Shown here: positions 28,895-64,000 of the stretch, one piece after another
Layout of the letters: every line of letters begins with the position of its first letter
Numbering within the stretch: the stretch's first letter is position 1
Source of the DNA: Tremella fuciformis
Taxonomy: Eukaryota; Basidiomycota; Tremellomycetes; Tremellales; Tremellaceae
DNA length: 64,000 nt
Assembly (NCBI GenBank): GCA_032768795.1
Contig: CP136498.1
Span: 434,001 to 498,000, forward strand
Direction of reading: 5' to 3'
Program-made: the position numbers and the translations under genes
The notes under the pieces: model-generated
Told to the model about the DNA's origin: nothing
Databases searched by the model: none
Seen by the model: the letters and a program-made list of their open reading frames with translations, nothing else

Positions 28895-29092
28895 TGTAAT
28901 GGAATACGTCATCACGGACATGTCCGTAGTAGCCGACTACCCGTGAGAACTCTACATATACAGACTGAGAAGGAGAGGATACCTTCTTCGAAGAATGTAT
29001 TATTCATCTGTCACCTGGTAACTCATCCTGGCATATCAGTCGACCAGCAAGGCAGTCACTCACATACCAACTCGCGTTCACCGATCCCGACA
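28895..29092 (+). repeat. 5' LTR of element 1
   Basis: 198 bp, TGTAAT ... CCGACA. A TATA-like CATATACA lies at 28954-28961. About 30 bp downstream, at 28990, begins the 13-nt stretch complementary to the primer-binding site, which fits a transcription start there. Confidence 0.97.
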
Positions 29093-29094
29093 GT

Positions 29095-29107
29095 TAATAC
29101 ATTCTTC
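29095..29107 (+). promoter_or_regulatory. Self-priming primer-binding site (Tf1/sushi type)
   Basis: TAATACATTCTTC, 2 bp after the 5' LTR, is the exact reverse complement of GAAGAATGTATTA at 28990-29002 inside the LTR. This is the arrangement of Tf1/sushi-group retrotransposons, in which the 5' end of the element's own mRNA folds back and, after cleavage, primes minus-strand DNA. No tRNA-complementary TGG follows the LTR directly. Confidence 0.8.
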
Positions 29108-29128
29108 CCATACTTGTGGACGACAGGT

Positions 29129-32100
29129 ATGTCAGGAAGACCTACGAGACAGAACCCAACAGGAGGAGCGCCGGGAATCGACGCCCAGGCGACCCTACCT
29201 GCCGATAACAGCCACACAAGCCTTCAGATACACCCTCAACCCTCGTCACCTACTACTCGCTCGTCGCCGTTGTCCAATCTCGAGCAACCACTCGAAGAAC
29301 AGCCGACGACTGGCAACAGCGACTCAAGAACCGCTCCACTCGAGGCTCCACCGACAACGTACCCGGTGGATACGAACGGAGTACATGGTTCGCACTATCT
29401 ATCAACTCGACTAGCGGAGGAAGAAATTCCCCGAGTTACCCCTTTTGTGCGGGGCAATCCCCCGCACCTTAGCCAAGGTCCCACGTATCAAGAGCTACTC
29501 GACCAACGAACTAGGATCGAGATGCAGCTCCAACAGATGGAGCAGGCACGAAGACAGCCTGTCCGAGAGCCTACACAGCCGAGGACGTCGACTACAGAAC
29601 CGTACATGACAACTACGGGGCTGAATCAACCCGTGGACATCAAAGTGGCCGCCGAGGCCGCCAAGAATATCAAGAAGCCGGATGTCTTTAGAGGCGATTT
29701 AGACCGACTGAAGCTGGATGCTTTTGTGCACCAAGTCGAAAGATACCTGCGAATCGCAGCACCTATCTACCCGACCGAAGAGCTCAAAGTGATCTTTGCT
29801 TCCGGCTACCTACGCGACGAGGCGGAGCAGTGGTACACTGGCCTAGTCGACAACAATCAAGAACCTACCACCCTGGTAGGGTTTATGACCGAGCTTCGAC
29901 GAACCTTTGGCCGTCACCATGAGGAATTCTCGGCCTACTTCGAACTGGACCGACTCAGACAAGGCAACATGTCGGCCTCTGAGTACGTAGTAAAGTTCCG
30001 TACTATCCTAGCACGGACCAATCAGTCACCGGATACGCAGTGCATGGCCTTCTACAAGGGATTGCGTGAGTACCTGCAACGCGAACTCATGACGCAACGA
30101 CCACGCCCTACATTCAGCGACTTCAACGACCTAGTCGAGCGTACCCTGTCTATTGACGACGCAGACCGAGAAGTCCGTGCGTTGCACCCCAAGCACCCAT
30201 TTCAGGGACCAAACCCGCCGGGCCGACACCAAGGAAATACCCGATTCAACACCCCTAGTCAACAAGTACGAGGGCATTTCCGCCCAAAAGTGGGATTGGA
30301 CACGGCAAGTAGCAGAGAGTCACCACCACGCACGGCGAACAAGTCTACAACCCCTAAGCCTCAAAGTGGCAGGACGTTCACGCAGCAGCCGAGAGGTCCT
30401 CTCTCGGAGGAAGAACGTAAGGCCCGTATAGAGGCAGGGGCTTGCACCTATTGTGGGAAAATGGGCCACACGATCAACAACTGTTGGACTCGACCACAGA
30501 ACAAGTTACCGCCACACCGGATCAACGTAGCCCAAACCGACACAACCGATCAGACCACAGAGAACCACGTAACAGGCGATTACGCAGCTGTCAACAGCCA
30601 AGAAGGTTCGATGGCGACAGAGAGAGTGAACGTCAGACTCACTCCACCAAGCGAGCCCCAGAAAAGAAACTTGAGAGACAGGTTCAACCGGGTAATGGCC
30701 AAATACAAAGGTCTACACAAGGTGATACCGGACCTAGGCTATCAAGAAATTCAAGGGTGGAACGAGAAGAATTTGACGCCTGAACAGGCGGAACGGAAGA
30801 CGTATGTAGCTAAAACACAGAACGTAGTACGCAATTACATTAGGAAGGCGACGTGCAGGGCGGATCCGTCTGCCTTGTACTTAACCAAAACGGAACCCCT
30901 CGAAGGGTCCAAAAGAACATCAAAAGAGGACGGCGTACGCGCCAATTATGAAACGCCTACAAGGCTGTTCAACGTCCCGATTGGCCTATCACAAATCCCT
31001 GGAGAGACCGCTAGGGCCCTCCTAGATACGGGAGCGACGTCCAACTTTGTCGACGACGAGTATGTGGCTCGACATCACCTCCCCATGACAAAACTCAAAC
31101 GACCAACGCCATTGGTAATGGCGGATGGCAGGGTATCCGAGTACGGACTCTTAACCCACCGAGTACAGCTTACGGTCCTACTGGGAAGGGGGTTCGAACC
31201 TTATCACGCCGACTTCATAGTCTCCCCGATACGCATAGCACACTTGATCTTAGGCATGCCCTTTCTGGACAAAGTGCAGCCTGTGGTAGACTGGAGTGCG
31301 AGAACTCTAGCACCACGGGACACAACAGACAAGACGCCAGACCAGGCCACTGCGTGGCTCTACACCGCCATCACGACGGCAGAACCGCCTACTGAGACAG
31401 AGCTACCTGCCGAATATGCACACTACAAAGACGTATTCGATAAAGGACAGGCCGATAAGCTACCAGAACATCGGCAATTCGACCACGCCATCCAACTGAG
31501 CTCGGACAAGGTACCACCAGCTGGGCCTATCTACGCACTTAGCCCACGAGAAAGGGAAGAACTAATGGCGTACCTGCGAGAAAACCTGGATAAAGGCTTC
31601 ATCAGAGAGTCACGATCCCCCGCAGGAGCACCAGTCCTATTCGTCAAAAAGAAGGACGGAAGTCTGCGGTTATGCGTCGATTACCGCAAGCTCAACGCCA
31701 TGACGATCAAGAACAAATACCCTTTGCCCCTGATAGGCGACGTAATCGACCAGATACGTGGATCGACCGTGTTTACCAAGTTAGACCTACGGGGTGCATA
31801 CAACCTCGTCCGCATAGCGGAGGGGGATGAGTGGAAGACAGCCTTCCGCACACCCTTCGGACAATACGAGTACCTGGTCATGCCCTTCGGGCTCTGCAAT
31901 GCACCAGGCTCGTTCCAGCTATTTATCAACCACGTCTTCCACGACCTACTCGACAAGTACGTGGCTGTATACCTCGACGATATATTGGTGTACTCCAAGG
32001 ATCTGGAACACCATACCCGCCACGTACAGGAAGTCCTGCGACGACTACGAGAGTATAAGCTATTCGCCAAACTCTCGAAATGCCAATTCCACAGCAACGA

Positions 32101-34381
32101 GGTGGAGTTCCTGGGTTTCGTTCTTAACAAAAACGGCATCAAGATGGACCCAAAGAAGGTGGAGGCGGTACAGGACTGGCCCACGCCTACGAACTTGAAG
32201 GAGACACAGTCGTTTGTAGGGTTCGCCAACTTCTACCGCAGATTCATCAGGAACTTTTCGGTAATAGCCAAATCCTTACACGACTTAACCAAGAAGGGAA
32301 CGCCCTTCCAATGGGGACCCAAACAGCAGGACGCTTTCGATTCTCTCAAGCGAGCGATGACTACGGCTCCCGTACTCAGCCACTACGACCCAAATCTTCC
32401 CCTATTACTAGAAACGGACGCGTCGGACTACGCTCTGGGTGCGATCCTGTCACACACCTACCCAGATGGTACGACCAGACCCATCGCATATGCTTCTCGG
32501 AAGATGGATCCGGCAGAACTCAACTATCCAGTTCACGACAAGGAGTTCCTAGCCATCGTGTACGCATTCAAGAGTTGGCGACATTACCTCGAAGGTACCC
32601 GAGTACGAGTGGTCGTACTATCCGATCACAGAAGTCTAGAGTACTTCTTAACCACCAAGCAATTGACAAGGAGGCAAGCTAGATGGAGCGAGTACATGGC
32701 CGATTTCGACTTTGTCATCCAATATAGGCCAGGCAAACAAGCTACCAAGCCAGATGCCCTGTCCAGACGACCAGACTATCGACCTACGGACACCAAAGCA
32801 ACCACCTTGTCACCAGAACTCAACGCGCACAACTTCAAGGCGTTGCTTTCTTCAGCACAGTACCTGGCAACTAGGGTCGAATACAAGGACCCTATGGCTC
32901 AAGAAGACTTTAAAGGCGCCATGGATGTGCACGAACAACAAAAATACGTGGCTCTTACGAAGAGCCATCCCGAAGAATACAAACACAAGGACGGCCTCTT
33001 CTACTACCACGACCTACCTATCGTGCCCGAGAAGCAACGAACCACGGTCCTCATATGGGCTCATAACCTACCGACGGCTGGCCACCCGGGGGTGGCTAAG
33101 ACCACATCCAGGCTACTTGCAAGATTCTGGTGGCCGAGGATGCGACGAGACGTCAAAACATGGGTAAAGCATTGCGAAACGTGCCAAAAGACCAAACATA
33201 CCAACCAACTACAACCAGGATTACTGCTAGACATACCCGTGGCAGAGCGACCCTGGTCAACTGTATCTACCGACTACATCACCAAATTACCGGACTCCAA
33301 GGGCTATACCAACATCAGCGTCTGGGTAGACCAGCTAACGAAGGCGGCGATCTTTATACCTATCGACAAGCTCGACGCCCCTACCCTGGCGGAGGCGTTT
33401 CTTACGAAAGTCTACCCAAGAACGGGGTTACCAGACCGTATCATCTCGGACAGAGGAGCACAGTACGTGTCAGCTTTCTGGCGCACAGTCACCAGTAAGC
33501 TTGGCTGTGACCTCAAGTTCTCTACCGCGTACCACCCACAAACGGATGGGCAAACCGAAATAGTCAACAAGTGGCTGGGCCAGTACCTACGCGTATATGC
33601 CAACTACGAACAGGACGACTGGTCCGTGCTGCTTCCTACAGCGGAATTCGTATACAACACCACGGTGCACGGAACCACCAGAATGACCCCCTACGATGCT
33701 TGGTACGGCTACACCCCTAGGCAGAATATGACAGACCCATTGGGAAGTTCCTCGCACGAAAGCGAGGAGGGGGTGACGTATACACGCAGGATATTTGAAA
33801 GATTCAAGTACCTTCAAGAACAGATCAAGCACGCACGGGCACAGAACAAACAGCAATACGACCGTAAACGCCGGTTACAGACATTCAAAGTGGGCGACCT
33901 AGTCTTACTTTCTGCTCGAAACTACAGGGGAGCTAGGACATCAGCCAAGCTAGATAACCGGTGGTTAGGACCATTCAAGGTGGCAGCAAAGGTCAACGAC
34001 AACGCATACAAGCTGCACCTCCCCGAGTCCTACAGGATCCACGACGTGATCAACGTGGAATACCTGAAGCCCTTCTACGCCTCAGAGGAAACAAGTACTA
34101 GCCAGTCACAACCTACGCAGTCGCCCGTCAGCGACATAGTGTTAGATGACAACGGTTATACCTACGAGGCGATCCTCGACGAACGAATGGTCAAGGACAA
34201 ACATGGGATTACCTCCAAACACTACCGTATCAAGTGGATAGGATGGCCTATCAGTGACAGTACATGGGAACCAGCGGCAGAGGTGGAAAGCGACCCTGCC
34301 TTCACCACCATGTACGACGCCTACTCAAACTCGGAGAGCCAGAGTAGGAGAAAGAGATTCGTACCTAACAGGTACGCGTGA
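29129..34381 (+). CDS. Gag-Pol polyprotein (Gag, protease, RT, RNase H, integrase, chromodomain)
   Basis: A single 1750-residue frame from the first ATG after the LTR. The frame stays open upstream into the LTR, but no ATG lies there. Visible in order: a Gag domain of the Ty3 type; a zinc knuckle CTYCGKMGHTINNC (residues 439-452); an aspartic protease LLDTGAT with Asp633; a reverse transcriptase with YLDD at 948-951; an RNase H (ETDASD, Asp1097); and an integrase with HHCC (H1312, H1319, C1349, C1352) and D1382, D1441, E1477 (D-x35-E). A C-terminal chromodomain spans about 1679-1735 (HYRIKWIGWPISDSTWEPA). Gag and Pol are fused without a frameshift, as in Tf1-like elements. The chromodomain directs integration to modified chromatin in related elements. 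All key residues are present, so activity is expected. Confidence 0.97.
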   Translation: MSGRPTRQNPTGGAPGIDAQATLPADNSHTSLQIHPQPSSPTTRSSPLSNLEQPLEEQPTTGNSDSRTAPLEAPPTTYPVDTNGVHGSHYLSTRLAEEEIPRVTPFVRGNPPHLSQGPTYQELLDQRTRIEMQLQQMEQARRQPVREPTQPRTSTTEPYMTTTGLNQPVDIKVAAEAAKNIKKPDVFRGDLDRLKLDAFVHQVERYLRIAAPIYPTEELKVIFASGYLRDEAEQWYTGLVDNNQEPTTLVGFMTELRRTFGRHHEEFSAYFELDRLRQGNMSASEYVVKFRTILARTNQSPDTQCMAFYKGLREYLQRELMTQRPRPTFSDFNDLVERTLSIDDADREVRALHPKHPFQGPNPPGRHQGNTRFNTPSQQVRGHFRPKVGLDTASSRESPPRTANKSTTPKPQSGRTFTQQPRGPLSEEERKARIEAGACTYCGKMGHTINNCWTRPQNKLPPHRINVAQTDTTDQTTENHVTGDYAAVNSQEGSMATERVNVRLTPPSEPQKRNLRDRFNRVMAKYKGLHKVIPDLGYQEIQGWNEKNLTPEQAERKTYVAKTQNVVRNYIRKATCRADPSALYLTKTEPLEGSKRTSKEDGVRANYETPTRLFNVPIGLSQIPGETARALLDTGATSNFVDDEYVARHHLPMTKLKRPTPLVMADGRVSEYGLLTHRVQLTVLLGRGFEPYHADFIVSPIRIAHLILGMPFLDKVQPVVDWSARTLAPRDTTDKTPDQATAWLYTAITTAEPPTETELPAEYAHYKDVFDKGQADKLPEHRQFDHAIQLSSDKVPPAGPIYALSPREREELMAYLRENLDKGFIRESRSPAGAPVLFVKKKDGSLRLCVDYRKLNAMTIKNKYPLPLIGDVIDQIRGSTVFTKLDLRGAYNLVRIAEGDEWKTAFRTPFGQYEYLVMPFGLCNAPGSFQLFINHVFHDLLDKYVAVYLDDILVYSKDLEHHTRHVQEVLRRLREYKLFAKLSKCQFHSNEVEFLGFVLNKNGIKMDPKKVEAVQDWPTPTNLKETQSFVGFANFYRRFIRNFSVIAKSLHDLTKKGTPFQWGPKQQDAFDSLKRAMTTAPVLSHYDPNLPLLLETDASDYALGAILSHTYPDGTTRPIAYASRKMDPAELNYPVHDKEFLAIVYAFKSWRHYLEGTRVRVVVLSDHRSLEYFLTTKQLTRRQARWSEYMADFDFVIQYRPGKQATKPDALSRRPDYRPTDTKATTLSPELNAHNFKALLSSAQYLATRVEYKDPMAQEDFKGAMDVHEQQKYVALTKSHPEEYKHKDGLFYYHDLPIVPEKQRTTVLIWAHNLPTAGHPGVAKTTSRLLARFWWPRMRRDVKTWVKHCETCQKTKHTNQLQPGLLLDIPVAERPWSTVSTDYITKLPDSKGYTNISVWVDQLTKAAIFIPIDKLDAPTLAEAFLTKVYPRTGLPDRIISDRGAQYVSAFWRTVTSKLGCDLKFSTAYHPQTDGQTEIVNKWLGQYLRVYANYEQDDWSVLLPTAEFVYNTTVHGTTRMTPYDAWYGYTPRQNMTDPLGSSSHESEEGVTYTRRIFERFKYLQEQIKHARAQNKQQYDRKRRLQTFKVGDLVLLSARNYRGARTSAKLDNRWLGPFKVAAKVNDNAYKLHLPESYRIHDVINVEYLKPFYASEETSTSQSQPTQSPVSDIVLDDNGYTYEAILDERMVKDKHGITSKHYRIKWIGWPISDSTWEPAAEVESDPAFTTMYDAYSNSESQSRRKRFVPNRYA

Positions 34382-34504
34382 GCGTACCTGTCAATAACCT
34401 ACACTCGTTGTTCCAACTACGCGACGGTCATTACATGCAAGAGAACGCATAATTATGTACAACACGCCCCGGAAGAGGAAGGAAGCGCCAACCTACAACA
34501 CCTA

Positions 34505-35432
34505 CTACGCATCGTCATCGGGCTCGGCGTCCTCCTGATCGGTCGCCTCGTCGTCGGATGGGTCCGACTCCTGTGCATAGCCGCCGCGGCCTCTATACTT
34601 GGAATAGTCAACTGGCCTTTTGGGAGACCTGTGCTCCGTCTTGACCTGGAATCCGTCGACTATCTGCCAATTAGCAACCGTAAGTGACCAAATATGCTAA
34701 CGTACAAACAAGGCTCGCCCGACGTACCCCTTCCATCTCTTCTTGTCATGGGCGGTCATGCGGTCAGTAGACGACAGCTCGCTCCGTAGATCCTGCAGAG
34801 TCGAGCCCAGTTCCTGCCAGGCACTTTCGCGAACGGTGCCCCGAGGACGTTTGCCTAGGGCAAGACCGAGCTGGATGTCGCAAGAAACTCCATGCTGGGA
34901 GTGACAACGCACGCAGCTGAGGTAAGCGTAGTTGGCAGGAACAAAACAGTACTTGCGAGGAAACTGCGCGGGACCCGCCTCCTTGGAGTACTATAGCGGC
35001 CACGACACAAGGCTTGCCAGCCTTTTCGCAGGCATTACACTCTGGTAATGAGCCGTGTAATCGCGGAATAGACTCACTGTCGGCGGCCCTTACGATCCTT
35101 AGCCGACCATCCCACGCTGCTATGAATGCCACGGCGGTGCGCATCACATGAGCTCGGTGCCGGCCAGCTTCATCAACCGACATCGCCGCTAAGGTCGAAG
35201 ATAGCTGGTTGGAGAGATCCTACTAGTCAGCGAATACCGCTCAGTAACTGCCACGTACCGCCGCTCGATGCTTGGCCTGAGTGAGGGTCCCGTCAAAGCC
35301 GACATGTCGCGCTCGGTACGTTCTACCGTTGCCTATACGGTATGTAGTCGAATCGTCGTTGGCATCGACGATGGCGTACGAGGCAGGAGGGGATACAGAC
35401 ACGTCTGCGGCGGTGTAGATACGAGCAGGCAT
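34505..35432 (-). CDS. Antisense, spliced accessory protein of element 1 with two zinc half-clusters
   Basis: Exon 1 is 35432-35259, followed by a 39-nt intron (GTACGT ... CTGAC ... TAG). Exon 2 starts at 35219, exon 3 is about 34916-34706, then a 43-nt intron with GTACGT, and exon 4 is 34663-34505. The donor between exons 2 and 3 is unclear; a GT at about 34976 would keep the frame. The product has CNACEKAGKPC (C119, C122, C129) followed by CVRCHSQHGVSC, then a helical Arg/Leu/Ser segment and a Lys/Arg then Asp/Glu-rich tail (SDPSDDEATDQEDAEPDDDA). It lies tail-to-tail with pol, 123 bp between stops, and would be transcribed from within or near the 3' LTR. Introns survive because they are antisense to the genomic RNA. 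Role unknown; a nucleic-acid-binding regulator is inferred. Element 2 has a positional counterpart. Confidence 0.7.
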
Positions 35433-35636
35433 CGTTAACGTACTTGGCAAGTTGGGGTGTCGCTCGAGGATTCAAGAAAGAAGAGAGATGGACGAAGAAC
35501 GGGCGCCCAACCTGGCTGGTTCATATATTACCGCGCCCGTCACTGCACGCCCTACTCTGCAGTTCTCATGTCGACACCCTCACGACCGTCGTCAAGGAGA
35601 CGCCCGTCGCTAGGCTCGGTCGCGACGCCCGAGGAC

Positions 35637-35651
35637 AAAGGAGGAGGCGAC
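35637..35651 (+). promoter_or_regulatory. Polypurine tract of element 1
   Basis: AAAGGAGGAGGCGAC lies directly before the 3' LTR and fits the plus-strand priming site. One or two pyrimidines near the LTR edge make the exact limits uncertain. Confidence 0.65.
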
Positions 35652-35849
35652 TGTAATGGAATACGTCATCACGGACATGTCCGTAGTAGCCGACTACCCG
35701 TGAGAACTCTACATATACAGACTGAGAAGGAGAGGATACCTTCTTCGAAGAATGTATTATTCATCTGTCACCTGGTAACTCATCCTGGCATATCAGTCGA
35801 CCAGCAAGGCAGTCACTCACATACCAACTCGCGTTCACCGATCCCGACA
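35652..35849 (+). repeat. 3' LTR of element 1
   Basis: Identical by eye to 28895-29092. Read on the minus strand it also has a TATA-like TGTATATG, which could serve the antisense gene ending at 34505. Confidence 0.97.
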
Positions 35850-36179: not shown

Positions 36180-37574
36180 TTAGTATCCACCGTACGTGGT
36201 ATTTCCACAATTAGCCTCTGCTCGAAATCGCTGTTCAGCAGCAAAGGCAAGACCATGAGCTTTACTCGCATCCTCACGTCTCCTGTGCACCTCCCATGTC
36301 GTTATGTCGAGCACAAACTTGTCTCGAGCTCGTTTGTATACCCAGTTCTTCTGCTCCACCGGATTCGAAGTACGATGGCCATAGCGGGTTGTTGGAAAGG
36401 CGTAGTCTGCCCAGAACAGATGAGGAATCGCGTTTAGGTGTTGAGCACAACTGACCATCAGTGTTTGTCGCGCAGCTCCGCAACATACTGCATGTTGAGC
36501 TCTCTCAGACGTGAGAGGGCTATCTCAAGCGACCGACCCCTTGCCCCTTGACCACCTCCCAACATGCAGCTCGAATTTCCTCTCCCCAAAGCTTCACAAG
36601 ATTTCTTTCGATGTGCTTGCAGCAGCAGGCCCGTGTTGCGCCCTCGAGCTCTGCTGCAACAGCTATCGCCAAGCCCTTCTGCCGATCACTCATGGTCACA
36701 GTGTTGCGCTCGTTAAGCCCCTCAAAGGCTTCCCCAAGACTTCGCATGGACCAGTCCCAGTGCACCGTGTCCTCTCGAAGCGTAATGCCGCAGGCCAGGT
36801 TGATGCCCTCCTCATTGGCGACGCTGTCGGCAGCTAGGACAAGGACATACTCGTGCAATGTCTTGGTGAAGGCCGCATCGACAGCGATGAAGGGGCGCAA
36901 GTGTTGCCACGCTTGCCGCATGCGGGACGGCGCAATGAAGAGGCTACTGAGGCGTTGGGACACCGTCTTCATGTGAACTAACGCCTGCAGATCGAGGGTA
37001 AGGATGTGCTGGGCGTAGGACGGGAGAAGCGAGAACTGGTGGATTTGGTGTTCAAGCTCGTTGCCGTTGATCGCAGAGAGAATTCGCAGGGCACTTTCAT
37101 ACGAGAGCTCGCTGCATTCACGATCTCTCCACCACTCGATCACTTGAGCGGGTGTTGTGTCTCGCGTCACACTCATCCCAGAGCGCACCTGTCATATACC
37201 AACATGGCCAACCCTTTCTTCCACATCACGCTCACCTTTGGCTCGATGTAGTCCATAGAATTCATTGTCCTTCGCCGTAACTTTGCTACACCGATGCAGT
37301 GATGCCGAGAGTTGATCTGTCGCAGGACTGCCATGAACGGGCAGCTGGGAACAATGCAGACAAGACGGAGATGGTTGGTACCACGCTTGTCAACCCGCAA
37401 GTTACCTCGCTGTTGGTGCGAAGCAGAGGGAATCCGCAGCTTTGCGTGGGTGATAGAGTCGGAATAGTGACCTTTCTTGAAGGACAAGGCTGTCGTTGTG
37501 GCCCGACAAGCTGTCCTCTGTGGGGAAAGACAGGCTGATAGATAATGCGAGCGAGAACGGGGGAGAGGTGACAA
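36180..37574 (-). pseudogene. Mutator-like (MULE) transposase, degenerate
   Basis: The N-terminal exon (to about 37236) carries a MULE-type zinc-binding domain (LRLVCIVPSCPFMAVLRQIN ... HHC). A 48-nt intron (GTGAGC ... GACAG) leads into the DDE domain: FIAVDAAFTKT (first Asp), ... TVTMSDRQKGLAIAVAAELE (second Asp), CCCKHIERN, then RSLEIALSRLRELNMQ and, further on, HLFWADYAFPTTRYGHRTSN (the C-terminal Mutator signature). Near 36540 the frame must shift by one base to continue, and another shift is needed near 36460, with no plausible intron for the first. So the gene is probably inactive. It ends with a Gly/Tyr-rich tail at 36180. Terminal inverted repeats were not located. Confidence 0.8.
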
Positions 37575-39096: not shown

Positions 39097-40545
39097 CTAG
39101 AAATCTATCATACCACCTAGGTCCTCGCATAGTTTCTGCTGACGTCTGTTCCGCAAAATTTGCACGAGATCCCGTACCTTGTTTATCACTGCCCAACCGT
39201 CGTCCAGAGGGGCAACGCCTTTGTCGGGCCACGACACATCGTCCACCGATGCCTCCAAGCCTAGCTCGGCTGCCATTTCCTGCTCCGCCTTGAGGTATCG
39301 CAGGTGAAACGCGAGAATTTGCTGGGGAGCGAGGTGGGGTTTGGATCTGAGTGTCGGTGTGGGTGCTACGATCTTTATGGCGGCTGCAGGAGAAGATGGA
39401 GCATCCGCGGGAGTGATCAGCGGCTCGTGAGTAGGATGGAGTGGTACTCGTGGAGAGGACACGGTCGAAGACAAGGAGGCTAGACGAGATCGAGGCGGAG
39501 TGTGAACTGTGATATGCTTTGGACTCGGCGTCCACGAGGCCTGTGAATCAGCTCTACCGCCTCGAGATTGGGTGCCGTTGGCCCCGCCACGAAGCTCACC
39601 ATTGCTGCTTCAGCCTCGTGCAAGGTTTCGAAGCCCATGCTTTCCTGCAGGTACTGAAAATGCTCGAAGCCAATCCCGTCATCGTTGTCGAAAAAGTCGT
39701 CTAGCGCCGAGCGGAGTTGCCCCGGGTCGCTCAACTCCTCTTCTAGATCCCGACCATCCCTGTACACATCTTCATCCGTCAATCGATCCCGCCGCCAAGA
39801 TGTACATCCAGACTCGCTTCTGGTGTCGCGAGGGGAGGAGCATCCGTCATCTCCTGGGTCAAAGAGGTCGGTCTCCCACTCGTCCTCGTCATCGCCGACA
39901 GGCTCGCTCTGATCAACATCATCCTCGACGTCGTCCGACAAGCTCCGTCGATATGCTTGTAATGCCTTGCTCAGGCCATCGCTCAGCTCCAATTCGACCC
40001 GGGGTAGCTTCCGGTCCAGCGCATCCAGTATGGCCCATGTCGAGTTGCACGGCAGGAATCGGATGATCGGTTTGGATGGTCCGCCGCCCGGAGTGTGGGC
40101 AAAGACCGGGCTCACCCAATCGTGAGTAGGCCGTTGCTCGATGCGGCCCAGCCGTTTGCCGTAAACCAGTCGAGTGATCGGTGCCGTCAGCGGAACCGAG
40201 GAGGAAGAAGGAATGGGGGATATGGACAGGTGATGGTGTACGCGTTGGACTCGTCTCTTCCGCAGTGTGCACGCGAGCTTTTTATGTCGACATCTCGTGC
40301 AGGGGCCCACGATCAGTCCACCCCCGCTGTCCTCCCTTGCGATATCTACGCCCGTCGTCCAGCAGTGAGACGAGTCGGGGCCGAGTTGGCAGGTCTCGCA
40401 TAGGAGAGAAGGATGCCTGAAGAACGTCAACCTGACAGTCCTAGCTGCAAGGTCCGATGTGCACTCACGAATAGGTGTCTCCGGTTTGAGGGATGAAGCC
40501 TACGCGAAGGAGCAGCTCCCTAGGTGCACGATAGTTGGTCGGCAT
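39097..40545 (-). CDS. Split zinc-cluster protein with acidic middle
   Basis: An ATG at 40545 begins MPTNYRAPRELLLRVGF. A GTGAGT intron of about 52 nt (CTTCAG acceptor near 40416) leads to the main exon ending near 39480. The motif is C32-x2-C35-x8-C44, a Gly/Asp-rich spacer of 20 residues, then C65-x2-C68-x6-C75 (CTRCRHKKLAC), followed by a basic stretch (RKRRVQRVHHH). That order, cluster then basic linker, is typical of fungal Zn2Cys6 regulators, although the spacer is long. A strongly acidic middle (DDVEDDVDQSEPVGDDEDEW) could be an activation region. A last exon (39474-39097) adds a Pro-rich part and a helix (ILAFHLRYLKAEQEMAAELG). The junction near 39500 is unresolved. It looks like a functional host gene of the same type as the retrotransposon antisense proteins. 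Confidence 0.6.
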
Positions 40546-58502: not shown

Positions 58503-59090
58503 ATGACCAGAGCGCCTATCCTCTCACTGGCTGACTATGCAGTTGGGTCTTGGGAGGCCGTCCAGATATCTCTATTGTTTCCCTCCTTGGGGCCCACCCA
58601 AATCCGGGACAACCCGGAAAGCCAAACACGGATAATTAATGACTTCTTGTTTGGACACAAAAGTAAAATCAACCAAGAGACAGTTGTCTGCTTGAATCTT
58701 GAACCACCTTTTGGTCCCACCTGGATCCGCCTCTATGTCACCAAAATCTATGCGATGCCAGTGGTACTAGGCATGCCATGGCTCCGGCAACATGACCCCT
58801 TCATCAGCTGGAGTCGCCTCACAATCACACCTAGTACCCACTGGCCAACTAACTGTACTATTAGGAAACCCACCGACTCAGCTCACTTAGCAGTTGTTCA
58901 AGCCACCCCTCTATCAAACGACCTCTCCAATGTCCCGATGGAGTACCACAAGTATGCTGATGTCTTTAGCAAAAAGAGAGCGGACCAGCTCCCACCTCAC
59001 CGGTCTTATGACCATCACATCCCACTTGTCACGATGCTACGCTCTCCCGTTGGCAGAGGCCCTCTCGCACAATATCAGAGTCAAGAATAA
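58503..59090 (+). pseudogene. Truncated Ty3/gypsy pol fragment (protease end to RT start)
   Basis: The frame encodes WIRLYVTKIYAMPVVLGMPW then RQHDPFISWSRLTI, the C-terminal part of a gypsy protease. It continues with MEYHKYADVFSKKRADQLPP, HRSYDHHIPL and a diverged GPLAQYQSQE, the start of reverse transcriptase, and ends at a stop. The protease Asp-Thr/Ser-Gly and all RT catalytic motifs are absent. It is from a different lineage than elements 1 and 2, to judge by the sequence. No LTRs are visible nearby. Confidence 0.85.
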
Positions 59091-59116
59091 AGGATTAAGG
59101 GGTAGAAACGAGGATG

Positions 59117-59700
59117 TCGAGGTAGGATCCTCGTCGAGGTTGGATCCTCGTCGAGGTTGCAAGGTCGTCGAGGTAACAAGGTCGTCGAGGATACAGCGTG
59201 AGTGCGACTCAGCCACGCTGCGTGCCACGGAGAGAGTGAGATCGTCAATGGTGATCCATGAGACTCAATCAGAGAGTGCTGAAGAACTACGACGGGCGCC
59301 CTGGGCATCCTATATGACTCTGCGCCTGCTTCCCGTCGTCGCGCGTTCATTCAACGTCTACTCCCTCGTCGAGGTTCTCCAGCCCGAGGTAGGTCACGTG
59401 TCGGCCACGTGAGAGATGTCGGTCACGTGCGTAGGTCGTCGAAGTCGAGCTCCTGCGAGACACGCGTCTCCATCCACTCCAGCCTTCTCCCTCGTCCTCG
59501 TCGAACACACCCGCATTGCCGATCCAGGAGTCGAGATAGCAGTCGTATGACGTCGCTTGTAACGGGAGCGAAACTCTGGCGACAAGTCGTCGAGCGGTCG
59601 TCAAGGAAACGGAGAAAGGACTGCCAATCCGTCGTCGAGGTAGCCTCGTGTTGCTTGAGGGCGTCGCCATGTCGCGGGGTGCTCGAAAACGACATAAACA
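59117..59700. repeat. Cluster of GTCGAGG-type short repeats
   Basis: The core (T)CGTCGAGG(T/A) recurs many times, densest at 59117-59195 where GGATCCTCGTCGAGGTTG-like units follow each other, then more loosely to 59700. Several CACGTG-like sites lie near 59395-59430. No gene is supported; a G run occurs at 59703-59713. Confidence 0.7.
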
Positions 59701-59762
59701 GAGGGGGGGGGGGGAGAGGGCGTCAGCGCTCTCTTCCCCACCACCTTTCATAACTCACGTCT

Positions 59763-60008
59763 ATGCCCCGGATTCATCTCTCCAAACCGAGGACACTCGA
59801 CGCATCAACCTTCACCACCACCTCGCCCCGTCCATCCCCCTATATCCTCTACGACACCAGTTCTCTAGACAACGCGCTGTCCTATCCTTCTTCTACAACC
59901 CCTACGACAACTATAGACGAAGCATCTTCTGACTCAGACGGGTCAGTAACACTCTGCACAGAGACCGATTCTCGATTTGAGACTGTCAGTGTCGACTCGA
60001 TGTCATGA
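59763..60008 (+). CDS. Ser/Thr-rich ORF cut by the element 2 LTR
   Basis: An ATG at 59763 (context GTCTATGCC) opens an 81-codon frame rich in Ser, Thr and Asp (TTTIDEASSDSDGSVTLCTE). Its last three codons come from the LTR that starts at 60001, so the natural 3' part was displaced and should lie beyond the far end of element 2, outside the window. Product unknown. Confidence 0.4.
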   Translation: MPRIHLSKPRTLDASTFTTTSPRPSPYILYDTSSLDNALSYPSSTTPTTTIDEASSDSDGSVTLCTETDSRFETVSVDSMS

Positions 60009-60509
60009 CTCATGATAAGGAAAAGGAGAAAACATGACTCATGGAATGATGTGTTATTTGGAGAACGTTTATCAGTTGATTAGTCAGCCTCCACCTTGCT
60101 TAGTAAGCCTCCACCTCTGAGGCATTTTTCCTATTGGCTAGTTCAAAGAGCTTAGTCAGCCTCCACCTTTGAGGCATTTTTCCTATTGGCTAGCTTGTAG
60201 TTTCCCACGGTGGTCTAAGTGAGGCATTTATCTGATTGGTCAGTAAATCCCTCACGACCCCTCTTTAATTAGTCCTACCTTTAAGATGTGAAGGGTATAA
60301 AAGGAGGCCTCATCTGGCCCTTCCCCCCTTCTTCTTCAGCAATGGATCTTGTGTCTTCTCTTCACACAAAGTCACTCAGTTGGTCTTAACCCAACACTTC
60401 AGTCACCTCAGTACCTAAGGCAGTCATCAAGCTCTACGAGCCAGAGACTAAACCCCTTCAGTACCCAAGGCAGACCTCTCGCTACCGCAGACTACCCGCA
60501 GGCGTGACA
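60001..60509 (-). repeat. 3' LTR of element 2 (509 bp)
   Basis: Ends TGTCA and TGACA form a 5-bp inverted repeat. Inside is a 41-bp direct repeat (60101-60141 and 60153-60193) with a partial third copy before it. The right edge is set by TGACA at 60505-60509, 4 bp before the accessory gene's ATG; the left edge interrupts an open frame. The polypurine tract expected just inside (60510 onward on the minus strand) is only moderately purine-rich, so the right boundary is not proven. Confidence 0.75.
60133..60304 (+). promoter_or_regulatory. CCAAT/TATA promoter in the LTR, pointing at the antisense gene
   Basis: ATTGG (inverted CCAAT) occurs at 60133, 60185 and 60235, followed by a consensus TATAAAAGG at 60296-60304 on the plus strand. 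A start about 30 bp later would give an mRNA leader of about 180 nt ending at the ATG at 60514. The direction is opposite to pol. Confidence 0.7.
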
Positions 60510-60513
60510 GTCG

Positions 60514-61870
60514 ATGTCCAACCCATCTCTGTCTCGCGCCGGCACCGCCCAACCCGAAGGCACCCCCTTCCCATCCCCCACGCAAGCCGCCTCGACTGCC
60601 GACATCCCAACAGTCGACGAGGCTGTTCCACTCCCCGCCGTCGGAGCCATCCCACCGCCCGACGAACAAGCTGCGGAGCTACTCAGCGATGCGCCTGCCG
60701 CGGCTGTCCCACAGGAAGAGGGGGAGGAGGAGTTGGATGTAGAGGCTGGTGTGGACGAGCTAGCGCCCGGCACTCCAGCATCGTCGAGCTTGTCCGAGGA
60801 GGAGATTCCTCCTAGCCGGCGATTTGACCCGCGTAGTGCTTCCGAGGAGGCATACTATGTGGAAAAAGGATGGGGTCTGCCGGTCCCAGAGTCAGAGCCA
60901 TTGGACCGTTCGTTCTTTGGTAAGTAAAGTCTGCAAGTTTTGCCCAAGCTGATCAGTAGGTTCCCACTATCCCGACCGAGGACAACGGGGATACAACAGA
61001 TCTCTGACATGGGCCCGGGTGAGTATTGTCAGCTACCTGGTATCCTCTGACATTCAGCAACAAGCGGGTTCACGGCCGATCCGGGTTCTAGAAGGGGATG
61101 AGCGATGTGAGGCGTGTGTCGCGGACGACCTCCCGTGTCGCATCGTCGAGGAAGGCAAGAAAGTGAAGTGCTTAACGTGCGGCACCCTAGCCTGCTCGTT
61201 CGGCACGGTAACTCCTGGCCCCTCTTCATCGGCACGGCGCCGTCAGGTGTCCTTCGCCCGCGCCACGTCTCCCTCGCCCGTCACGCCCGGCGCCCGACGC
61301 TCCGGCCAACTCGCTGCAGCCCGGTCCACGTCGATGACCTTGGCCGCTGGCCTCGCCAACATCGACCTAGCGGGCACGGTCAAGGCTTCTGGGAAGAAAG
61401 GGAAGGGAAAGGGAAGAGAGAAACGTCGGGCTCGCTCTTCGTCCTCGCCCATTTCGTCACCGTTGGCACACAAGAGGCTCCGCTCGGGGCATCCTACCTT
61501 GACGAGTAGGCTGAGCCCGCTCCCTCCCCCTGCTCCGGAACCGATGGATGGCGCTGGCACGGGTTGGCTAGGGGATGGCGGACTCGATCCTGTACCTCAA
61601 GCCGGACCATCAAGGACTTCTCACTGGTCTCCACCCCCGCCCATGATGCAGCTACCGCCGCCAACACCACCACCATCCGCTCCAGTGACCTCGACCTCTG
61701 CCCCAGACCGCCGGTGGCAAGAGTTATTTCAATTGAGTCATTTCGCTCGCCGGGAGACTCAAGCACCGATGCGTACCTACTTTATCTCACGGGCACGGGA
61801 CATCGCAGGTGACTTGGGTGTTAACTTCAACGAGTTGACACTTGGGGAGTTTCTTGAGGGGACATCTTGA
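60514..61870 (+). CDS. Antisense, spliced accessory protein of element 2 with zinc half-clusters
   Basis: Exons 60514-60919, 60960-61018 and 61058-61870 join in phase to 425 residues, with introns of 40 and 39 nt (GTAAGT ... CAGTAG; GTGAGT ... CTGAC ... TTCAG). The N-terminal 135 residues are Pro/Ala/Glu-rich. Then comes C172-x2-C175-x6-C182-x10-C193-x2-C196-x4-C201 (CEACVADDLPC and CLTCGTLAC), a Ser/Arg/Lys-rich stretch with KGKGKGREKRRARSSSS, a Pro-rich part, and a helical end (RWQELFQLSHFARRE ... DIAGDLGVNFNEL). It is antisense to pol, tail-to-tail with 124 bp between stops. Its ATG is 5 bp inside the LTR, whose CCAAT/TATA promoter faces it. The basic and cluster regions suggest nucleic-acid binding (inference). 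Counterpart of 34505-35432 in element 1. Confidence 0.75.
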
Positions 61871-61994
61871 CCGTAGCTTGTCTTGTCTCTTACTTCTTGC
61901 TTCTTGCTCTTTGCCGTCTTGACTCTTGTACCTTCCCGCATGTATGTCTCTCACCGCTCACTGCTTCTCAGCCTACGCTCTGTCGCTGCTTCAC

Positions 61995-64000
61995 TTAGGC
62001 CCTGGTTGCTGCTTGGCCTCCTGGCTTCCCCGGGTTCTCCTTGTGGAACTTCTCAATGCTCGCCCAGGCTCCATCAATGTTCCCTGCCGGTTCCCATGTC
62101 GTCGCCTCATCCGTTCCCTCATACCCGAGCCACTCCACCTTGTACTCCAATCGTCCTCTCCTTTTCCTCGAGTCGATGATCCTCTTCACCTCGAATGATT
62201 CCCCTTCCTCGTCGACTTCCACAGGCCCTGGCGGATCGTATGTTTGTCCTGGGAGCGTTGGTGGCTCGAATACCTTGAGTCGGTCCACCGAAAAGACTGG
62301 ATTGACCTTCATTGTGTCGGGCAGCTCGAGCTTGTACGCGCTGCCCGCCTTTGCGATGATCCTATAGGGTCCACACCATTTCAAGTCGAGCTTCTTCGAA
62401 GGTCGTCGAGTTTGTATGTTCTCCATCGACAGCATCACTTGGTCCCCTACCTTCATCTCGGGGGCCTCCTGATGCTTGGCGTTGTACCCTCTTGCGTATG
62501 CCTCATTGGCGAGCTCGATGTTCTTCTTGCACAAGGCGTGCACCTCCTCGAGCGAGGCAAATTTTTCAACGACTGATGGGATCTCTCGAGCTTCTCCCTC
62601 GACGACGATGGATTCTGCCCACCTTGGGGCATAGCCGAAGTTTGCTTCAAAGGGCGTCATCATGATTGCCGAGTGCATTGAGTTGTTGTACGCGAACGCC
62701 GCTCGCTGGAGGAGAGTAGCCCAGTTGTCCTGCTTGTAGTCGCAGAAGATCCTCAGGTATTGTTCGAGAGCTTGATTTGTCCTCTCTGTCTGCCCATCCG
62801 TCTGAGGGTGGAAGGCCGTCGAGAGGCTGACCTTGATGCCGAGGGTGTTGCACATTGCCCCCCACAGCTTGCTGGTGAACTTGCTTCCTCTATCCGAGAT
62901 GATGCTCGTGGGTAGCCCATGCTGCGCTACCACATTGTCGAGGACAAGGTCGACCAGGCCTGCCGTGTTGAGCCGAGTTGTCGTAGGGATGAAGATAGCC
63001 CATTTGGGGAGCCGGTCGACGACGACAAGAATCAAGTTGAAGCCCGAGCTGGCGGGAAGCTCCTCGATGAAGTCCATGGAAATCGAGGACCATGGCCTGT
63101 CAGCTATCTCCAGGCTGTGTAACAGCCCATGGGGACGCTGACGCACCGGTTTGCACCGCTGACACACTGCGCATCCTCGCACATACTTCTCCACGTCCCG
63201 CCTTAGCCCTAACCAACAGTGCTCCCTCCTAACCAGCTCCAGCATCTTCGCAACCCCAGGATGTCCAGCCAATTGCCCCTCGTGGTGATCCCGCATGACC
63301 TTAACTCTTGCCTGCTTGATGTCCGGGATGTAGAGTCGACCGTTTATCCTGAGAAGACCATCCTCGTCGAACTTGATCTTGCTTGCCTCGTCGAGGCCCA
63401 GTCTCTTTGCCAGTGACCACGCCTTCGGATTCTCCTCTTTCGTGATGTTCTTCTCCCCTCTTAGTTCTCCAATCTCCTCCAATGTATCCTTCAAGTCCTC
63501 ATCTCCGCGCTGCCCTTCTTTCAATTCCCCTCGAGACAATCCCCTCAATTCTCCTTCCTCGTCTTCTCCTTCTTCTTCGTCTTCTCCTCCTTCTTCGTCT
63601 TCCACCAGCGCTCGCAACATGTAGCCCAGACTGGATGTGACCGTACTCTCCTCGTCGAAGCTTGGCAGGGCTTGGACTAGCTCTGGTTCTGCGTCCTTGC
63701 CCTGTGGAATGTAGTCGGCTCTCCTCGATAATGCATCCGGGTAGGCTGCCTTGGTTCCTGGTCAATAGACGATCTTGTATGAGAAGCCAGCCAGGGTATC
63801 CACCCATCTCGCAACTCGAGGGCTGAGTTTCTGTGGCTCCATCCAGTATGTGAGGTTGAGATGGTCGGTCAAGATCGTCGAGGTAACCTGCAGAAGAAGG
63901 TGCCGGCGTCGCTTAAAGGCCATAACAATTGCGAGGAACTCTTTCTCCGTGGTGGTGTAGTTGAGCTCCGCTCCTGAGAAGGCACCCGACTCGACTGCAA
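61995..64000 (-). pseudogene. Pol of element 2: RNase H end, integrase, chromodomain; one in-frame stop
   Basis: From the window edge the minus strand reads TTTEKEFLAIVMAFKRRRHL and ILTDHLNLTYWM (RNase H), then KIVY, TGA, PGTKAAYPDALSRR. The stop at 63764-63762 replaces the Arg usually found there, one C-to-T change from CGA. After an acidic linker the integrase has its HHCC zinc site (GHPGVAKMLELVRREHCW ... CAVCQRC). The catalytic DDE follows (SMDFIEEL, ISDRGSKFTS, TDGQTERTNQALEQY). A chromodomain (LEYKVEWLGYEGTDEATTWE) ends just before the stop at 61995. Apart from the single nonsense codon the frame is intact, so inactivation looks recent. Confidence 0.92.

Follow-up and report, generated by a model that had tools for sequence, protein, structure and literature searches.

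An antisense gene with predicted introns and a zinc-cluster-like motif between pol and the 3' LTR of Ty3 chromoviruses in Tremella fuciformis

The chromovirus and its antisense gene

The window, by which we mean the whole 64-kb stretch of Tremella fuciformis DNA that was analysed, contains a complete Ty3 chromovirus at 28895-35849 (Table 1). The element is young, its 5' and 3' LTRs being identical at 198 nt each, and the 5-bp target duplication AGGGA is present at both outer LTR edges. In Pfam, the single gag-pol frame, with its pol stop at 34381, scores 133.4 bits for RVT_1, 123.3 for RT_RNaseH, 41.5 for rve and 39.9 for Chromo (cut-off 25.1); reverse transcriptase, RNase H, integrase and C-terminal chromodomain all exceed their cut-offs, which makes the element a chromovirus. 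The 13-nt stretch complementary to the LTR presumably resembles the primer sites of Tf1-type self-priming elements, and Rfam and tRNA scans of the window returned no matches. A fragment of a MULE/Mutator-type transposase adjoins the insertion (36520-37188, minus strand).

Opposite to gag-pol, between the pol stop and the 3' LTR, lies a second gene, which spans 34505-35432, starts with an ATG at 35432, ends at a TAG stop and is convergent with pol, with 123 nt between the two. Four predicted introns, of 39, 36, 40 and 42 nt, separate its five exons, and the predicted product of 256 aa contains two CxxC-x(6-7)-C halves followed by an acidic C-terminus. The original prediction had placed a spliced antisense gene here, in a young and intact Ty3 element, and the ATG, single stop, half motifs and acidic tail that it described are all present. 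A TATA-like stretch, TAATATATG, occurs at about 35522-35530, that is 90-98 nt 5' of the antisense ATG, in the unique region and outside the LTR.

Table 1. Coordinates of the two Ty3 elements and their antisense genes in the 64-kb window
Feature	Position	Strand	Remarks
5' LTR (198 nt)	28895..29092	+	start TGTAATGG, end CCCGACA
14-bp palindrome ACGGACATGTCCGT (CGG-N6-CCG), candidate protein-binding site	28914..28927	.	5' LTR
Putative self-primer site, 13 nt	29095..29107	+	complementary to GAAGAATGTATTA at LTR position 96
gag-pol, single open frame	29129..34381	+	gag, protease, RT, RNase H, integrase, chromodomain
Exon 5	34505..34663	-	acidic tail, TAG stop
Predicted intron 4, 42 nt	34664..34705	-	GTACGT/GTACGC..CAG/TAG; CTAAT ahead of acceptor
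Exon 4	34706..34916	-	second half motif CVRCHSQHGVSC
Predicted intron 3, 40 nt, GC-AG type	34917..34956	-	GCAAGT..CTCAG; directly 5' of fourth cysteine
Exon 3	34957..35041	-	first half motif CNACEKAGKPC
Predicted intron 2, 36 nt	35042..35077	-	GTGAGT/GTAAGT..CAG; read-through also open
Exon 2	35078..35219	-	
Predicted intron 1, 39 nt	35220..35258	-	GTACGT..TAG/CAG; CTGAC ahead of acceptor
Exon 1	35259..35432	-	ATG at 35432
Unique region, antisense ATG to 3' LTR; presumed antisense promoter and leader	35433..35651	-	promoter role inferred
3' LTR	35652..35849	+	same sequence as 5' LTR
Palindrome ACGGACATGTCCGT, second copy	35671..35684	.	3' LTR
Second Ty3 element, cut by window end	59000-64000		own antisense zinc-motif gene
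Antisense zinc-motif gene of second element	60514..61870	+	predicted exons 60514-60919, 60960-61018, 61058-61870; introns 40, 39 nt
3' part of pol of second element	61995..63620	-	38% identical to query, integrase and chromodomain region

Among the 19 listed copies of the gene described below, the splice sites vary only within the usual choices (GTGAGT or GTAAGT, GTACGT or GTACGC, CAG or TAG), the one exception being L014, in which the GC donor of intron 3 is lost. The predicted introns are of normal size for this genome, since those of host chaperonin genes are about equal to them, with a median of 44 nt and a range of 38-65 nt (22 estimates from profile gaps, joins with a gap of more than 15 positions being excluded). 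Splicing is least certain for intron 2, because an in-frame read-through is also open. For intron 3, a model of 28 nt (GTACTC..GCGCAG) with a 260-aa product was rejected in favour of the 40-nt GC-AG intron, for two reasons: the upstream changes are silent in the frame of the latter but not in that of the former, and the L078-L081 group has an intron in matching phase immediately ahead of its fourth cysteine. Some of the protein, genome, Pfam and viral-contig searches used the 260-aa version, which differs from the 256-aa protein only around the intron 3 junction. Training an ab initio model of splicing and codon use on pol did not yield full antisense genes.

Copies of the element and selection on the antisense protein

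The genome searched comprises 28.1 Mb in 11 contigs, in which 40 of 56 candidate places were scored, so that copy numbers are lower bounds; 19 of the scored places span the pol end to the 3' LTR and 21 are LTR-only. The 19 listed copies split into two groups of 7 and 12, the antisense frame is kept in all 19, and each of the 19 pol matches of this element's family has an antisense gene beside it. An antisense open reading frame between pol and the 3' LTR is present in all 19 of these copies and is conserved like the other proteins of the element.

Across the exons, 37 of 771 sites vary among the 19 listed copies, 26 of them at third codon positions. Synonymous changes (27) exceed non-synonymous ones (10), which against an expected non-synonymous fraction of 0.72, at an assumed transition/transversion weight of 3, gives an omega of about 0.15 (P 2e-8, a value that, like the others given here, overstates independence because the copies are related). 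For the 25 sites at which the variant is shared, the counts are 21 and 4 and omega falls to 0.07, while the last 393 codons of pol yield 0.14, or 0.09 for shared sites, in 18 of the 19 copies (the partial L070 being omitted). The comparison shows purifying selection on the antisense protein at a strength like that on pol (0.15 versus 0.14). Copies that lack the gene and neutral decay of its sequence had been named in advance as observations that would speak against it; both were looked for, none of the former was found, and of the latter the lost splice donor is the only instance.

The introns, at 16 of 157 sites, are about twice as variable as the exons. Non-coding rates are uneven, since the stretch from the ATG to the LTR (7 of 219 sites) varies less than the exons and that after the stop (12 of 123) as much as the introns; the 3' LTR varies at 7 of 198. 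The two other frames of the antisense strand give omegas of 1.75 and 3.4. Read on the gag-pol strand, the joined exons have one frame that looks constrained as well (omega 0.22, P 6e-6), an effect of its sharing third positions with the antisense frame; without joining, 34382-35651 contains 8, 15 and 12 stops in its three sense frames.

Antisense genes in other chromovirus groups

Antisense frames of similar cysteine pattern were seen immediately after pol in other loci that carry it. The antisense proteins of four groups, this element's included, were used as queries against the genome, the groups being our own sorting by similarity and pol frame length. Of 126 matches, 106 were counted; 19 were set aside as second, N-terminal pieces of the 19 copies, and so was one, at E 0.227, with no adjoining pol. 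Antisense matches lying up to 4 kb 3' of a listed pol account for 85 of the 106 and sense matches for none, with 21 having no listed pol; as the matches are exon pieces, some genes are counted twice. Seen from the side of pol, for which the list holds 105 scored of 241 candidates, 83 of the 105 matches have an antisense partner and 11 fall in neither the positive nor the negative class, and six further pairs come from additional match lists. The motif was also seen by eye in single copies of three more groups (L077, L087 and L088, the last with only its second half clear). In one group, represented by L074 and L076, the 1.4-1.5 kb that follow pol contain no clear motif, for which loss, a different gene or a gene lying further out are possible reasons. 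A comparable antisense gene is present in 11 of the 12 chromovirus groups examined, this element's group counted, where the chromovirus status of the other groups is taken from 38-44% identity to the query from the integrase through the chromodomain region.

Gene structure is also held in common. The antisense genes of the second element of the window and of its relative L083 have their two introns in the same places and agree in the LDR-FFG and NR-L-WA blocks as well as in the zinc core, and L079 has a 58-nt intron of the same phase as intron 3 of the 34505-35432 gene, directly before the fourth cysteine, with boundaries that are kept in L078, L080 and L081. In an alignment of nine cores, drawn from eight groups, six cysteines are invariant at 20-53% identity to the first row, an invariance that is partly a matter of choice because the rows were picked by their CxxC pattern; position, orientation and common introns are the stronger evidence for a shared gene.

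Some further cysteine-rich frames were encountered. At L075:240-425 (plus strand), about 500 nt beyond the first antisense ORF as seen from pol, stands a second six-cysteine frame, which may be a second gene or belong to a neighbouring element. Three frames, of 1763 aa at L084 (C1:2593499), 486 aa at L085 (C4:59356) and 2023 aa at L086 (C8:43415), encode zinc-core proteins of the L073 type; none has a listed pol within 4 kb, and L084 has a repeat-like tail. The window itself holds an ORF at 39480-40430 (minus strand) with CxxC halves (CETC...CTRCRHKKLACTL) and no long pol frame adjoining, whose genome matches, apart from itself, come to one weak relative at C9:603434-603709; it may be a host gene or an orphan with the same type of zinc motif.

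What the protein resembles

Three relatives on short public contigs were found in the protein database: P0001, which belongs to this element's family, P0002, from the L075 group, and P0003, from the L072 group. P0003 is unbroken, and its zinc core matches that of the L072 protein residue for residue, whereas the flanks differ. An alignment query built from the second element and L083 retrieved no relatives from the same database, nor did the search of viral contigs, and absence from these collections says little because they may be poor in fungi.

Compared with Pfam, the antisense proteins reach the cut-off of no family, and of the 151 Zn_clus sites in the genome none of the 150 listed comes within 1.5 kb of any of 94 antisense matches, small or repeated pieces being excluded. 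For Zn_clus (PF00172, cut-off 21 bits), the 260-aa model of the present protein scores 11.9 bits and the 256-aa version is not listed, with the best relative, P0002, at 13.0 bits, also below the cut-off. DUF3716 (PF12511, cut-off 22 bits) is likewise not listed for this protein and scores 11.9 bits with L072 and 13.7 with P0003. The site C3:10125-10322 is matched both by DUF3716 (17.9 bits, below the cut-off) and by the L072 protein (E 1.4e-5), and this domain is a possible distant relative.

Zn2Cys6 clusters follow the consensus spacing C-x2-C-x6-C-x(5-12)-C-x2-C-x(6-8)-C. In this element the cysteine halves are separated by 17 residues, which places it outside that consensus; the related proteins of L073 and L075 fall within it. 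Few basic residues lie between the second and third cysteines. A profile of six relatives that leaves out the present protein (A3) has 13 matches in the PDB, the best at E 0.024, and 12 of these are HAP1/CYP1, LEU3, LAC9, GAL4, PUT3 or an ethanol regulon factor, which we take to be Zn2Cys6 (Gal4-type) activators of six kinds. The profile of all nine cores, the present protein included, has 14 matches, ten of them Gal4-type and the rest hydrogenase and peroxin chains, at a best E of 0.41. The matches of both profiles are weaker than the usual significance line, and common cysteine spacing can explain most of the similarity. The single-sequence fold model of P0002, of low confidence at a mean pLDDT of 66.2, has two long helices after the cluster and found no match in the PDB at E 0.001 with Foldseek.

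A palindrome in the LTR

Each LTR contains the palindrome ACGGACATGTCCGT, whose CGG-N6-CCG form is one bound by some Gal4-type factors; within the window it occurs only in these two places. It lies 63-76 nt before the inferred RNA start and, in the 3' LTR, upstream of the antisense gene. Among the 3' LTRs compared (19 of 21 loci, L020 and L021 being LTR-only and left out), 18 of 19 have it intact and L018 has it changed. Dinucleotide-shuffled LTRs contain CGG-N6-CCG in 2.3% of cases and a 14-bp palindrome in 1.3%, frequencies to be read in the knowledge that the palindrome was noticed before the test. Seven regions 5' of other antisense genes were compared irrespective of their LTR boundaries: four contain CGG-N6-CCG and three do not, and neither ACGGACATGTCCGT nor a common palindrome motif was found in the seven. 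As a protein target, the LTR palindrome is a lead, not a result.

Proposed function and its alternatives

Our preferred reading, to which we give a probability of roughly 55%, is of a functional antisense accessory gene whose spliced product is a Gal4-like zinc-cluster nuclear protein that binds the element's own LTR and sets its transcription. Transcription would run antisense towards pol, from a promoter located either in the LTR or in the unique region ahead of the ATG, and the transcript would be spliced to encode the 256-aa protein with its putative six-cysteine Gal4-like zinc cluster and acidic tail. The introns would survive reverse transcription of the sense RNA because the gene is antisense, and they make sense only if the antisense strand is expressed. 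The protein would then enter the nucleus and bind the LTR DNA, thereby adjusting the level of sense transcription and of the antisense gene itself. Rather than having been captured recently, the gene would have been passed down within this fungus's chromoviruses for a long time. A bolder extension, which we entertain only tentatively, is that of a self-regulating lineage, most members of which would encode an intron-bearing antisense Gal4-like factor that binds a palindromic CGG site in the LTR and couples sense to antisense expression, the trait dating from the common ancestor of the groups or earlier and the domain having diverged together with its LTR sites.

That the protein is real but serves as a nucleic-acid chaperone, a particle component or an aid to nuclear import of the integration complex, instead of regulating transcription, is an unlikely but serious alternative. 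It would suit the weak basic patch in the cluster and the failure to reach the Pfam threshold for Zn_clus, and nuclear entry of the integration complex is raised for such proteins in a review (PMC7264820). The weak profile similarity of the relatives, with Zn2Cys6 activators making up 12 of 13 PDB matches, points the other way, and an acidic tail fits a regulator. We think it improbable that the antisense RNA itself is the functional product, acting through dsRNA silencing or transcriptional interference with the protein secondary. Convergence with pol at a distance of 123 nt would favour such a role, and the same review proposes dsRNA for genes of this kind (PMC7264820), but the constraint lies on amino acids (27 synonymous against 10 non-synonymous sites), the introns vary more than the exons, and related proteins persist in groups whose core identity to the first row is only 20-53%.

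Capture of a host zinc-cluster gene that has no role in the element appears very improbable. The genome does hold 151 Zn_clus sites, and one of these is the only non-element match to the present protein, but at E 0.23 that match is not significant; constraint equals that on pol, and position and orientation are the same in about 11 groups. Hardly credible, finally, is a chance antisense frame with accidental splice-like signals: short introns are easily found by eye, and our own 28-nt model of intron 3 proved wrong, but the synonymous excess across the 19 related copies (P 2e-8) and the homologous gene structures of other groups both count against it.

A single genome here offers many element groups, an identifiable motif, pol-like selection in one group and a candidate target in the LTR. 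Because groups, motif, selection, introns and candidate site stand together here, the function of such antisense genes becomes directly testable. Annotation pipelines could meanwhile be counting genes of this type as host zinc-cluster or orphan genes.

Comparison with known systems

In plants and in Boty, LTR retrotransposons are already on record as carrying antisense accessory genes, whose functions are described as unknown (PMC7264820). Among fungi, brtn is an antisense gene found in the Boty-like elements of Botrytis cinerea (PMC8365987, PMC4227169, citing Zhao et al. 2011), and for Monilinia a transcript similar to truncated Pol and BRTN is reported (PMC5987419). We liken the brtn gene of the Boty-like chromoviruses of B. 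cinerea and Sclerotinia sclerotiorum to the present one by description only. What stands of the original prediction is a protein-coding antisense gene with introns, kept in frame in 19 of 19 copies, whose omega equals the pol value and which has a relative on another, public contig. Its claim to novelty, that no fungal Ty3 element had been described with such a gene, was wrong and fails because Boty elements carry brtn. Searches of the open-licence PMC literature, at the level of titles and the beginnings of abstracts, gave no fungal Ty3 element with an antisense gene of the zinc-cluster type. An antisense gene in a fungal Ty3 element is therefore of a known kind, and its four-intron, zinc-cluster-like form, spread over 11 of 12 groups in one genome, is undescribed as far as our searches show.

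Among plant elements, gene23 of maize Grande and its relatives is alike in being antisense, in lying between pol and the 3' LTR and in being conserved like the other proteins of the element; it has a promoter upstream of the gene and a nuclear protein product (PMC7264820). It differs in belonging to a plant lineage and, in the part of the review available and compared by description, in carrying no mention of a zinc cluster (PMC7264820). The TRP28 ORFs of Retand are also antisense, occur in 97% of clusters and are credited with potential DNA binding and a proposed regulatory role, but they encode a TRP28 domain in non-chromovirus plant elements, and the word 'intron' is absent from that text (PMC11963269).

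With the Gal4-type Zn2Cys6 proteins (PF00172), the likeness consists of six cysteines in two CxxC halves and, for the relatives, of weak profile similarity to HAP1, LEU3 and GAL4, whereas the middle loop of this element's protein is longer, its basic patch is weak and the Pfam cut-off is not reached. The original prediction likened the gene to the spliced antisense regulators that complex retroviruses make from the 3' LTR, and a promoter there and a trans-regulatory role may hold here too. A more distant parallel is HBZ of HTLV-1, of which a spliced form exists and which is a bZIP rather than a zinc-cluster protein. The likeness is by analogy only, HBZ being an antisense-encoded nuclear protein of a retroelement (PMC11963269). 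The antisense promoter of HTLV lies in the 3' LTR (PMC7264820), whereas the TATA-like stretch of the present element stands in the unique region.
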